Shown: piece by piece, positions 45,928-50,236 of the stretch | Numbering within the stretch: the first letter of the stretch is position 1 | Layout of the letters: each line of letters starts with the position of its first letter | Source: Bacteroidaceae bacterium HV4-6-C5C | GTDB lineage: Bacteria > Bacteroidota > Bacteroidia > Bacteroidales > Bacteroidaceae | DNA length: 64,000 bases | Reading direction: 5' to 3' | NCBI GenBank assembly: GCA_007896885.1 | Contig: VOIU01000003.1 | Span: forward strand, 1-64,000 | Translations under genes and position numbers: made by a program | The notes under the pieces: model-generated | Told to the model about the DNA's origin: nothing | What the model saw: only the letters and a program-made list of their open reading frames with translations | The model's database searches: none

Positions 45928-45968
45928 AAAGCCGGTTGAGCTGTTAAACTTCTCTTCCGGCTTTTTCA
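45928..45968. terminator. Convergent terminator, nitroreductase / DMT transporter
   Basis: AAAGCCGG (45928-45935) pairs with CCGGCTTT (45957-45964) followed by TT. It overlaps the last codons of the minus-strand transporter gene and could serve both directions. Confidence 0.6.
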
Positions 45969-46858
45969 AAATCAGCTTTCGATTTACTTTTTGTGACGAT
46001 GTATACTCCGGCAAAGACTAAAAGAATTGCGATTCCTTTCTGCCATCCGAATACACCGATTCCTAATATGATAGATACGATAGAAGCTACAATAGGCTGC
46101 ATATAGTTATACATGCTCACTACAGTAGGACGCAGGAGCTTTTGGGCTGTCATGATGCAGATATATGCAAAGAAAGTTCCTCCCAAAACAATATAAGCTA
46201 CATCGAGCAATGCCGTTCCCGGTATAATATCCCAATGTATTGCCGTGATATCACTATACGAGAAGGGAATATAGCAGATAGACGCATATACAAACATCCA
46301 TTTATTGAGTGTGACGGGGGAGTACTGCTGTGTTAATCCTTTAAAAGCAGTCAGATAGATGGAGAAGCTCAATTGCGCAACCATGCAAAGAAGGTCTCCC
46401 CAGATATTTCCGGCTCCCGATGCACCTGACTGACTACTCATAATGAGAATTAGCGCACCCATGGCACCGACAAAGATGCCGAGTACTTTTAGATTAGTGA
46501 CTGGTTCTTTGAGATATATTGCAGCCACAATCATGGTAATAATAGGAAGTGTTGTAGTGACAATAGATGCATCAATAGGGGATGTCAGGGAAAGGCCGAA
46601 AATAAAAACGCCTTGATTGAAGACCAAGGCGAACAAGGCTGCAAAGAAAAGTTTAAGCATATCTTTATGGTTAACATGCTCTCTCTTCACAAATATAGAA
46701 AGTAACCAGAACGCAGCAGCAGCTCCCACCATACGGAAGGTAGTCACAGACAGTGCGGAAAATTCTTGTAAGGCGGATTTACCGATGGGGGACATCAGTC
46801 CCCACATGATATTCGCACTAAGGGCGAGAATATGCCCTTTCATATTTTTATCGCTCAT
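45944..46858 (-). CDS. DMT-superfamily (EamA) transporter
   Basis: A 304-residue membrane protein with ten predicted helices in two EamA repeats. Repeat one includes LALSANIMWGLMSPIGK, SALSVTTFRMVGAA and FIFGLSLTSPIDASIVTTTLPI; repeat two includes GDLLCMVAQLSFSIYLTAFKG and VSMYNYMQPIVASIVSIILG. Proteins of this kind export amino acids, nucleosides or other metabolites; the substrate is not predictable. It is transcribed alone, divergent from the ATPase gene 83 bases away. Confidence 0.92.
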   Translation of the reverse strand: MSDKNMKGHILALSANIMWGLMSPIGKSALQEFSALSVTTFRMVGAAAAFWLLSIFVKREHVNHKDMLKLFFAALFALVFNQGVFIFGLSLTSPIDASIVTTTLPIITMIVAAIYLKEPVTNLKVLGIFVGAMGALILIMSSQSGASGAGNIWGDLLCMVAQLSFSIYLTAFKGLTQQYSPVTLNKWMFVYASICYIPFSYSDITAIHWDIIPGTALLDVAYIVLGGTFFAYICIMTAQKLLRPTVVSMYNYMQPIVASIVSIILGIGVFGWQKGIAILLVFAGVYIVTKSKSKADFEKAGREV

Positions 46859-46941: not shown

Positions 46942-47769
46942 ATGGAACAGCAGGCTAATTACATTAAGCGGATTGAAATTCACAAGCTGTGGGACAGATA
47001 CAACATTGTTTGGGATTTACGCCCCGATGTTAATATTCTTTCTGGTATAAACGGAGTGGGAAAGACGACTATCCTCAACCGTTCCGTTACTTATCTCGAA
47101 AAACTCTCCGGTGAAATTAAAAAAGGTGAAATGGATGGAGTGCTTGTAGAGTTTGACCCTCCCGAAGCTACTTATATCCCTTATGACGTCATACGCAGTT
47201 ATGACCGACCTTTGATTATGGGAGATTTTACTGCTCACATGGCTGATCCGCATGTGAAATCGGAAATGGATTGGCAACTATATCTCCTGCAGCGCCGTTA
47301 CCTTGATTATCAGGTAAATATCGGGAATAAGATGATCGATCTCCTATCCGGTGATGAGGCTCAGCGTGAACAAGCTGCTTTATTGTCAAAGCCGAAAAGG
47401 ACTTTCCAAAATCTGATTGATCGTTTATTTGGCTACACCCGTAAAACGATAGACCGAAAGAGCAATGAGATTGTTTTTTATCAGGATGGTGAACGACTAC
47501 TGCCTTATAAGCTTTCGTCCGGTGAGAAACAGATGCTAATTATATTACTCACCGCATTGGTTCAAGATAATCGGCATCATGTTCTTTTTATGGATGAGCC
47601 GGAGGCTTCGCTTCATATCGAATGGCAACAAAAGCTTATCAGTATGATAAAAGAACTTAATCCTAATGTACAGTTGATCTTGACTACGCATTCTCCTGCT
47701 GTGATAATGGAAGGCTGGTTGGATGCGGTGACTGAAGTCAGTGATATTGCTGTTTCCGTGAAAGAATAA
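46942..47769 (+). CDS. Small AAA/ABC-type ATPase, partner of the DUF4435 protein (AriA-like)
   Basis: A 275-residue SMC/ABC-type ATPase of the AAA15/RecF-like class. Walker A is GINGVGKTT (35-43), the ABC signature LSSGEKQ (191-197), Walker B HVLFMDEPEAS with Asp218-Glu219, and the switch histidine in LILTTHSPA near 250. Between Walker A and the signature there is only a short helical insert instead of a long coiled coil, so it is a compact version. The next gene, 82 bases later, encodes a DUF4435/TOPRIM protein. ATPase plus DUF4435 is the pairing of the PARIS defence system (AriA, AriB); described AriA proteins are larger, so this is an architectural match only. It could alternatively be a conserved housekeeping pair. 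Confidence 0.85.
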   Translation: MEQQANYIKRIEIHKLWDRYNIVWDLRPDVNILSGINGVGKTTILNRSVTYLEKLSGEIKKGEMDGVLVEFDPPEATYIPYDVIRSYDRPLIMGDFTAHMADPHVKSEMDWQLYLLQRRYLDYQVNIGNKMIDLLSGDEAQREQAALLSKPKRTFQNLIDRLFGYTRKTIDRKSNEIVFYQDGERLLPYKLSSGEKQMLIILLTALVQDNRHHVLFMDEPEASLHIEWQQKLISMIKELNPNVQLILTTHSPAVIMEGWLDAVTEVSDIAVSVKE

Positions 47770-47851
47770 CTCCTGCCTCTTTCGCCCGATTTGTGGTAAT
47801 ATGTTGAATTAAAAATAAATGGATCAGCTCTTTGGTCTGTAAACGGTAAAT

Positions 47852-48865
47852 ATGGCAATATCCTTACAACATAATCTTACTTCTTCATATTTTGACGCTG
47901 CGAACAAGCTGTACTCAAAGAAAGTCCGGAGGCGCATTGTTGCTTATGTGGAGAGTTTTGATGATATAGCTTTCTGGCGTGCGTTATTAGCAGAATTTGA
48001 AAATGATGAATTTTATTTTCAGGTAATGCTTCCTTCTTCTACTTCACTGAGCAAAGGTAAGAAGATGGTATTGATGAATACGCTTGATACCGATGCGTTG
48101 GGCAGAAGCATGATTGCTTGCGTGGATAGCGATTATGACCTGTTGTTACAAGGCGCTACAAATGTTTCGCGTAAAATCAACAGTAATCCATATATTTTTC
48201 AGACCTACGGTTATGCTATAGAAAGCTTCTTATGTTATGCCGAAAGTTTGCATGAGGTTTGTGTACAGGCTACCTTAAACGATCGTAAGTTAATGGATTT
48301 TCCTGCTTTCATGAAAGAATACTCTCAAATAGCTTATCCGCTTTTTCTTTGGAACATCTGGTTTTACCGCCAAAGAGATACAAATACATTTCCAATGTAT
48401 GATTTCAACACTTGTGTGCGGATACAAGATATCAGTACTCGATATCCGGAGCGTGCTTTAAGTGAGATGCAACAATGTGTATCTAAGAAAGTTGCCGAAT
48501 TGGAAAGAAGCTTTCCTAAAAATGTTACTGAAGTCAAAGGTTTGGCAGAAGAATTAAGTAAATTGGGTTTGACTCCCGATACGACTTACCTTTATATCCA
48601 GGGACATCATATCATGGACAATGTGGTGATGAAATTGCTCATTCCTGTGTGTACGGTTTTACGCCGTGAGCGGGAAGCCGAAATCAAGAAACTGGCGGAA
48701 CATAATGAGCAGTTCCGTAATGAGTTAACTAGTTATGAGCACAGTCAGACTAATGTGGAGTTGATGCTAAAGAAAAATACGGGCTATAAGAGCCTCTATC
48801 TTTACAAATGGCTCAAAGAAGATATTGCAGAATTTATGAAGAAGACGAAAGGAAAGATATCTTGA
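47852..48865 (+). CDS. DUF4435 protein with TOPRIM-like nuclease motifs (AriB-like)
   Basis: A 337-residue protein of the DUF4435 type. Near the N-terminus Glu34 in VAYVESFDDIAFWR and the pair Asp92/Asp94 in ACVDSDYD reproduce the E...DxD metal-binding pattern of TOPRIM nucleases. A segment around 110-125 (NPYIFQTYGYAIESFLCY) continues the DUF4435 pattern. The C-terminal ~100 residues are helical and charged, with a possible coiled coil (REREAEIKKLAEHNEQF). In PARIS, the DUF4435 subunit AriB is held by the ATPase AriA and released as a toxic tRNA nuclease when a phage trigger is sensed. All catalytic residues appear intact. The neighbours (DMT transporter, MscS channel) are not defence genes. 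Confidence 0.82.
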   Translation: MAISLQHNLTSSYFDAANKLYSKKVRRRIVAYVESFDDIAFWRALLAEFENDEFYFQVMLPSSTSLSKGKKMVLMNTLDTDALGRSMIACVDSDYDLLLQGATNVSRKINSNPYIFQTYGYAIESFLCYAESLHEVCVQATLNDRKLMDFPAFMKEYSQIAYPLFLWNIWFYRQRDTNTFPMYDFNTCVRIQDISTRYPERALSEMQQCVSKKVAELERSFPKNVTEVKGLAEELSKLGLTPDTTYLYIQGHHIMDNVVMKLLIPVCTVLRREREAEIKKLAEHNEQFRNELTSYEHSQTNVELMLKKNTGYKSLYLYKWLKEDIAEFMKKTKGKIS

Positions 48866-48982: not shown

Positions 48983-50236
48983 ATGAATATTGTTGAGCAA
49001 ATTAAAGAGGGATTGGTTTCACTAGGTTTCGGACAGTCATTAGCCGATCAGTTGGATCAGTTTGTGGCTTTTGCGGGAGTGCTTGTCATTGCATTCTTTG
49101 CAGATGCCATTTGCCGTAAGATCTTACTTCGGATTGTATCCCATCTTGTTAAACGGACTAAAGCGACATGGGATGATATAATTTTCGATCGTAAGGTTAT
49201 GGTACATTTAAGTCGGATGGTGGCTCCTGTTATTATTTATATTCTTATACCAGTTGCTTTTTCGCAAACCGATACACCAACATTGGATTTTATTCTGAGG
49301 ATGTGTTTGGTTTACATTATTATATCTTTTATCAGCTTTGTCAGCTCTTTCATGTCTGCAGTCTATACGGTGTATAGCGAGAAAGACCAGTTTCGTGATC
49401 GACCGTTGAAGGGATTATTGCAGACGGCTCAAGTTGTTCTGTTCTTTATTGGTGGCATCATAGCTATAAGTGTGCTTGTTGATAAATCGCCCATGTTTTT
49501 GCTGACGGGATTGGGAGCATCTGCAGCTATCCTGATGCTAGTATTCAAAGACAGCATTATGGGGTTTGTCTCCGGGATACAACTTTCAGCAAACAAAATG
49601 TTGAAGGTTGGCGACTGGATTGCCATGCCCAAATATAATGCCGACGGTACAGTGATTGAAGTCACACTTAATACGGTTAAAGTACGGAATTGGGATAATA
49701 CAATCATCACAATTCCGCCTTATGCATTGGTTAGCGACTCTTTTCAGAACTGGCGTGGAATGCAAGAGAGTGGGGGAAGACGGGTGAAACGGTCGGTTAA
49801 TATAGACATGAACAGTGTGAAGTTCTGCACTCCGGAGATGTTGGAAAAATATCGTAAGATACACTTGCTGAGAGATTATATCAATATCACCGAAGACGTT
49901 GTCAAAAAATATAATGAAGATAACTCCATTGATAATTCAGTTTTGGTAAATGGCCGCCGCCAAACCAATCTCGGCGTATTTAGAGCATATCTGACTCAAT
50001 ATCTCAAGAACCTTCCTGAAGTAAACCAGGAACTGACTTGTATGGTTCGCCAATTGCAACCCACCGATCATGGTATACCTGTTGAATTATACTTTTTCTC
50101 TGCTATTAAAGAATGGGTAATCTATGAAGGTGTGCAGGCCGATGTATTTGATCATGTTCTGGCAATTATCCCCGAATTTGACTTGAGTGTCTTTCAATCT
50201 CCGTCAGGGGCTGACTTTGCAAGAGTACTGCATTAA
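48983..50236 (+). CDS. MscS-family mechanosensitive channel (YbdG-like)
   Basis: A 417-residue inner-membrane protein with five hydrophobic segments in the first ~200 residues. The pore-lining helix region is LTGLGASAAILMLVFKDSIMGFVSGIQL, containing the Gly/Ala packing pattern and the F-K-D turn of MscS proteins, followed by the beta domain motif VGDWIAMPKYNADGTVIEVTLNTVKVRNWDNTIITIPPY. The length and the large C-terminal domain resemble E. coli YbdG/miniconductance channels rather than MscS itself. It should protect against hypo-osmotic shock. It starts 117 bases after the DUF4435 gene without an obvious terminator between, so read-through is possible. Confidence 0.93.
   Translation: MNIVEQIKEGLVSLGFGQSLADQLDQFVAFAGVLVIAFFADAICRKILLRIVSHLVKRTKATWDDIIFDRKVMVHLSRMVAPVIIYILIPVAFSQTDTPTLDFILRMCLVYIIISFISFVSSFMSAVYTVYSEKDQFRDRPLKGLLQTAQVVLFFIGGIIAISVLVDKSPMFLLTGLGASAAILMLVFKDSIMGFVSGIQLSANKMLKVGDWIAMPKYNADGTVIEVTLNTVKVRNWDNTIITIPPYALVSDSFQNWRGMQESGGRRVKRSVNIDMNSVKFCTPEMLEKYRKIHLLRDYINITEDVVKKYNEDNSIDNSVLVNGRRQTNLGVFRAYLTQYLKNLPEVNQELTCMVRQLQPTDHGIPVELYFFSAIKEWVIYEGVQADVFDHVLAIIPEFDLSVFQSPSGADFARVLH

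Follow-up and report, generated by a model that had tools for sequence, protein, structure and literature searches.

Gene content of the locus

The window, a stretch of 64,000 nucleotides from Bacteroidaceae bacterium HV4-6-C5C (contig VOIU01000003.1), contains two tandem open reading frames encoding a compact ATPase of 275 amino acids and a DUF4435 protein of 337 amino acids (Table 1). Both had been described in an earlier note on this DNA and were recovered as described. The ATPase scored 69.4 bits against AAA_15 (cut-off 32.1) and 67.1 bits against AAA_21 (cut-off 27), and the second protein scored 170.6 bits against DUF4435 (PF14491, cut-off 27). With PADLOC, the ATPase matched the AriA model PDLC04164 at 8e-59 and the DUF4435 protein matched the AriB model PDLC02983 at 3e-64. 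The Walker A, signature, and Walker B motifs that the earlier note had described as intact were read in the ATPase and are conserved in its orthologs. The acidic residues E34, D92, and D94, which it had described as kept in the DUF4435 protein, are present in the window and invariant in every ortholog checked. The neighbors had been called neither mobile nor defense genes, and the profile matches agree: a nitroreductase, an EamA permease, and a mechanosensitive channel were identified, none of them with a mobile or defense signature. PADLOC returned nothing on the metabolic, regulatory, and transport genes around the pair beyond a weak histidine kinase match.

Table 1. Genes and motifs of the ATPase-DUF4435 locus, with positions in the window.
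Feature	Position	Strand	Basis
Compact ABC/OLD-type ATPase, AriA-like, 275 aa	46942..47769	+	AAA_15; PADLOC AriA; best PDB and Foldseek match AriA
Walker A (G35xNGxGKT), residues 35-42	47044..47067	+	G35, N37, G38, G40, and K41 invariant in 66 core orthologs
ABC signature LSSGEKQ, residues 191-197	47512..47532	+	(Nearly) invariant in core and accessory sequences
Walker B region ending MDEPE (217-221), residues 213-221	47578..47604	+	D218, E219, and P220 invariant in all groups
DUF4435 TOPRIM-type protein, AriB-like putative nuclease, 337 aa	47852..48865	+	PF14491; PADLOC AriB; AlphaFold model
N-terminal helix, residues 5-20 (LxxxxxSxYxxA), candidate ATPase-docking element	47864..47911	+	Conservation; tracks ATPase presence
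E34, putative catalytic Glu, equivalent of AriB E26 by position	47951..47953	+	Invariant
KGKK basic motif, residues 68-71, +34 to +37 from E34	48053..48064	+	Conservation; AriB equivalence positional only
D92-S-D94, TOPRIM DxD	48125..48133	+	Both Asp invariant in all groups
Divergent EamA/DMT permease, conserved neighbor, not thought functionally linked	45944..46858	-	EamA match; immediate neighbor in 7 of 21 genera examined
MscS-type mechanosensitive channel, downstream	48983..50236	+	PF00924 at 3e-18; neighbor in genera g1 and g7 only

Relation to PARIS and active site of the DUF4435 protein

PARIS acts by abortive infection, in which Ocr triggers the release of AriB and tRNA is cleaved. The published detection rule for PARIS calls for AAA_15 at 32 bits or more, or AAA_21 at 27 bits or more, next to DUF4435 at 27 bits or more (Rousset et al. 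2022; PMC9122126), and all three scores of the window pair lie above these values. The best PDB match of the ATPase by sequence was AriA (8ux9), and its best fold matches were also AriA (8v45, 8v46, and 8ux9; Foldseek, E about 1e-12). The PARIS-like relationship put forward in the earlier note is thus well founded, as no solved structure matches the ATPase better than AriA and both proteins score above the PARIS thresholds. Like PARIS of the E. coli B185 type, the locus is a two-gene cassette of an ABC ATPase and a DUF4435/TOPRIM protein with a catalytic Glu and a DxD motif. Unlike AriA, which has about 464 amino acids (464 in the B185 type) and a long internal part, the ATPase has only 275 amino acids (down to 221 in relatives), and it aligns to AriA only at both ends, at residues 8-46 and 181-269. 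The related ABC ATPase fold of PtuA, found in Septu and retrons, differs in its partner, as the HNH nuclease PtuB is absent at the window locus.

The link to AriB is less certain. The Pfam and PADLOC AriB models match the DUF4435 protein, but profile and fold searches fell short of solved AriB: searches of the PDB with the single protein, with two profiles, with a fused DUF4435, and with an Acinetobacter DUF4435 did not reach it, and Foldseek with the DUF4435 model gave no significant match to solved structures, AriB included. The protein is labeled TOPRIM-type on the basis of its motifs and published DUF4435 work. In the AlphaFold model, which is confident (pLDDT 90), E34 and D92/D94 directly follow strands, as in TOPRIM domains.

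The putative active site is intact throughout. E34, D92, and D94 were invariant in 67 core and 17 Rikenellaceae sequences, and again in a set of 29 core, 7 paired, and 73 solo sequences, in which D38, E124, G69, K70, and H252 were invariant as well. In the basic KGKK motif, position 68 is K or R and K71 is nearly invariant. AriB residues K60 and K64, located 34 and 38 residues after E26, are required for defense (PMC12409363), and the KGKK motif may parallel them by its position relative to E34, a correspondence made by spacing and not by alignment. Residue 125 of the window protein (48224-48226) is Ser, where Asn was found in 64 of 67 core, 17 of 17 Rikenellaceae, and 28 of 29 other sequences.

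Distribution and inheritance in Bacteroidaceae

Of 121 Bacteroidaceae genomes of at least 90% completeness, 117 had both DUF4435 and the ATPase, and four (G222, G148, G026, and G190) had neither gene. In G153 (genus g5), which is among the 117, the pair is divergent (32-34% identity) and groups with accessory pairs. The orthologous pair, hereafter the core pair, was adjacent in the loci examined and occurred side by side as a single copy in about 116 of the 121 genomes and 21 of 22 genera at 45-77% identity; conservation at this level across 21 genera rules out a chance association. In the window's genus, 83 of 89 good genomes had a match. The family includes Bacteroides, and a B. finegoldii record shows the order MeaB, DMT permease, ATPase, DUF4435, and MscS.

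Pairwise distances in 29 genomes correlated with those of RpoB (Spearman 0.69 for DUF4435 and 0.64 for the ATPase; Mantel p 0.001). Quick trees had 13 of 26 splits in common with RpoB for DUF4435 and 10 of 26 for the ATPase, main clades included, and the weaker agreement of the latter makes some exchange of the ATPase within the family possible. Both genes are under strong purifying selection, with dN/dS of 0.00-0.04 in close pairs; values of 0.02-0.12 were obtained in computable Rikenellaceae pairs. The pair does not have the patchy distribution or mobile setting of a typical defense system, as it occurs in 117 of 121 genomes, keeps the divergent permease upstream in seven genera, and has no defense matches beside it in the window. 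The earlier note had offered a minimal defense variant as one option, which is not what this distribution shows, the locus being core and vertically inherited in Bacteroidaceae. The vertical presence that it had set against patchiness was found in this family but not across Bacteroidales as a whole.

Where the core pair is missing, the losses are clean and joint, both genes going together. In seven genomes of genus g1, a TCA operon fills the roughly 5-kb interval between the EamA and MscS genes (L287, L288, and L289), and in three of these seven intervals that were read there was no trace of an ATPase or DUF4435 gene. The identity of citrate synthase in the replaced interval was confirmed, and a putative aconitase and isocitrate dehydrogenase were named from sequence and gene order. 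The common arrangement suggests that the replacement in the seven genomes was one event. In G190, the EamA and MscS genes are directly adjacent and the pair is absent.

Several variants of the locus were noted. Smaller ATPases of 221-244 amino acids, with Walker A intact and an intact DUF4435 gene downstream, occur in genera g8 and g22 (L290-L293). Short ATPase matches in G170, G175, G201, and G234 were rejected as broken genes, as they are intact, in the same size range, and retain Walker A. Apparent ATPase-DUF4435 fusions in long open frames of G069, G189, and G197 were likewise rejected, as the frames hold separate ORFs. In two genomes of the window's genus (G053 and G056; L134 and L135), the ATPase gene is intact but the adjoining DUF4435 gene is divided between two frames, which is either a real loss or an assembly error. 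A B. finegoldii record named "plasmid 41" (L192, NZ_OY725943.1) contains a core locus of chromosomal type and may be a mislabeled chromosome fragment, and Phocaeicola massiliensis "plasmid 93" (L275, OY726067.1) also matches DUF4435.

Accessory pairs and occurrence outside the family

Patchy compact pairs of about 22-32% identity occur in the same families and form separate clades in the trees of both proteins. These accessory PARIS-like pairs of Bacteroidota (PDLC04164/PDLC04165) have an identical compact two-gene architecture, but unlike the core pair they are patchy, and some are located in a conjugative-type element or by defense genes. One of them (L150) matched PDLC04164 (AriA) at 1e-107 and PDLC04165 (AriB) at 3e-103, far better than the core pair. 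Another (L145) sits among genes that look like conjugative-transfer genes, and others were found near AbiE, HEC-01B, HEC-09, and PDC-S26 genes. Most accessory DUF4435 proteins carry ENH, whereas the core has ENY or ENF. Defense genes made up about nine of 49 neighbors of accessory pairs and about 5 of 52 neighbors of core pairs, 3 of the latter being matches to MkoA-type helicase models, one of which (L105:5087-6946) is an IGHMBP2-family helicase; this difference is too weak to lean on as an enrichment. A protein of 556 amino acids in the window's own genome is a fusion of a second DUF4435 and a short AAA_21-type domain (L002, 601-2271; G000:C52:184587-185192); it is likely the product of an accessory single-protein PARIS-like gene.

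Across the order Bacteroidales, 22 of 295 genomes matched, 5 of these from Bacteroidaceae. As the pair is missing from most Bacteroidales families, it is not a universal housekeeping enzyme. In Rikenellaceae (f103; Alistipes, Rikenella, and Tidjanibacter), DUF4435 was present in 59 of 60 genomes and 16 of 16 genera at 35-42% identity. In the trees of both proteins, core Bacteroidaceae and Rikenellaceae grouped as sisters (97% support), and the accessory pairs fell outside; the trees were quickly built, include some very long branches, and have an unreliable root. Given its presence in two families that are perhaps not nearest relatives, an old transfer could be the source. A third Bacteroidales family (f96) had a match in 19 of 45 genomes. 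The matches cluster by genus: DUF4435 was found in nearly all members of some genera (g117, g213, g215, and g225) and in none of others, possibly another fixation. The core DUF4435 had no match among phages and viral contigs, and two viral contigs carry distant relatives.

Loss of the ATPase and the N-terminal helix

A clear ATPase was found in only 11 of the 60 Rikenellaceae genomes, adjoining DUF4435 in some and located elsewhere in others (e.g., G554, G568, and G558). The search found none in the remaining genomes, with a weak match only in G565 (3e-9). A large clade of Alistipes and relatives has lost the ATPase and kept the nuclease gene with its invariant active site. Among 80 named loci, most of which were examined in their neighborhood only, the ATPase was adjacent in 6, so that "ATPase-less" means not adjacent for these loci; the term is supported by the whole-genome searches of the numbered genomes.

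In the first 19 Rikenellaceae genomes, the DUF4435 match started at residue 5-7 where an ATPase was present and at residue 19-27 where it was not. A prediction set beforehand for the 41 further genomes named G552, G567, G574, and G580 as the only ones with an ATPase, and the search found exactly those. One of the 41 (G597) had no DUF4435 match, and the prediction was correct in all that carry the gene. By inspection, ATPase-bearing loci have the LxxxxxSxYxxA motif and the others have unrelated, often basic tails; the ATPase-bearing L184 did not match the strict pattern. In the core, L5, S11, Y13, and A16 of the helix are at least 95% conserved. The helix is kept exactly where the genome has the ATPase, which makes it a candidate docking element. 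When the N-terminus was left out of the tree, one change in ATPase state, a single loss, was sufficient, and the association of helix and ATPase therefore amounts to one evolutionary event and not to 59 independent ones.

Interpretation of the pair

On balance, we lean towards a compact PARIS-like module that was fixed in the ancestor of Bacteroidaceae, with a sister lineage in Rikenellaceae, and that now probably has a regular cellular role. The near-universal, constrained, and joint inheritance of the pair, together with the long survival of the solo nuclease, argues against a disposable abortive-infection cassette or a plain toxin-antitoxin system. The earlier note had also considered a housekeeping ancestor of PARIS. 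The housekeeping part of that option fits better than a defense variant, while the ancestor part found no support: only two families have the core lineage and compact PARIS-like pairs are scattered far wider, so that a fixed, domesticated descendant is likelier, a polarity that we infer with a tree without a reliable root. A precedent for an OLD-family ATPase outside defense is Cran1, a class 5 OLD ATPase of Sulfolobales, which is likewise an OLD-family ATPase-nuclease conserved in one lineage with no defense link; unlike the window pair, to which it is not orthologous, it is a single archaeal protein, essential, and a DNA nickase with a cell-cycle role (PMC12796447).

More tentatively, the abortive-infection module may have been domesticated once into a core RNA-control device, from which the solo nuclease of Alistipes shed both the ATPase and the docking helix. 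In the mechanism that we infer, the DUF4435 protein would be a nuclease acting on RNA in a function outside defense. The small ABC-type ATPase would oligomerize and bind it through its N-terminal helix, and the ATP state and a signal, probably host-derived, would set the amount of free or active nuclease. Once freed, the TOPRIM protein would cut RNA, with tRNA as the best guess by analogy with AriB, and the cutting would adjust or arrest translation.

Core anti-phage defense, in which a compact PARIS acts by abortive infection and is fixed and vertically inherited under constant gut phage pressure, seems unlikely but is the most serious of the other explanations. Among solved proteins, AriA is nearest to the ATPase, the PARIS thresholds are exceeded, and patchy compact relatives lie near AbiE, HEC-01, HEC-09, PD-T4-4-like, and other defense genes. 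The two named families with fixed lineages are moreover typical of the gut, and core, vertical inheritance is compatible with defense. The uniform conservation with dN/dS near 0.02 and the lack of a mobile context speak against it, as does the Alistipes clade, where the nuclease is kept alone and the ATPase as sensor or antitoxin is gone.

OLD enzymes cut DNA, and other OLD/RecF-type enzymes act in repair or chromosome maintenance. A DNA-acting ATPase-nuclease with such a role would agree with the SMC/RecF-type similarity of the ATPase and with the cell-cycle-tied nickase Cran1 (PMC12796447), but it appears improbable, given that AriA, the nearest relative by structure, has a tRNase as its partner, that the KGKK patch is found where AriB lysines grip the anticodon loop (an argument from position only), and that Alistipes can dispense with the ATPase. 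A toxin-antitoxin pair that is selfish or a relic, of no benefit to the cell, would explain the joint loss of both genes, as of a toxin held by its antitoxin, but is very improbable in view of vertical inheritance over the whole family, strong purifying selection, and a putative toxin that has long been kept in the absence of the ATPase; a toxin is not expected without its partner, and the ATPase-less Rikenellaceae keep DUF4435 with its active site intact.

The reported frequency of Rst_PARIS is 20% in genomes from the human gut, for the most part Bacteroidales, and close to zero in those from soil or sea (PMC10924106). As the locus satisfies the PARIS rule and is core in gut Bacteroidales, it probably accounts for much of this gut excess, and a vertically inherited core pair would explain this pattern without PARIS immunity having any special importance there. 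The core pair thus probably inflates PARIS counts for gut Bacteroidales in defense surveys; it should be kept apart from ordinary mobile defense systems, though the PARIS rule and the PADLOC models call it PARIS. Besides a candidate docking helix between ATPase and nuclease, the locus offers a natural series of paired, unlinked, and solitary nuclease genes for studying how an abortive-infection module may turn into a cellular enzyme. In Tidjanibacter, an ATPase-less DUF4435 gene is oriented divergently from clpB (L137, 4216-6810).
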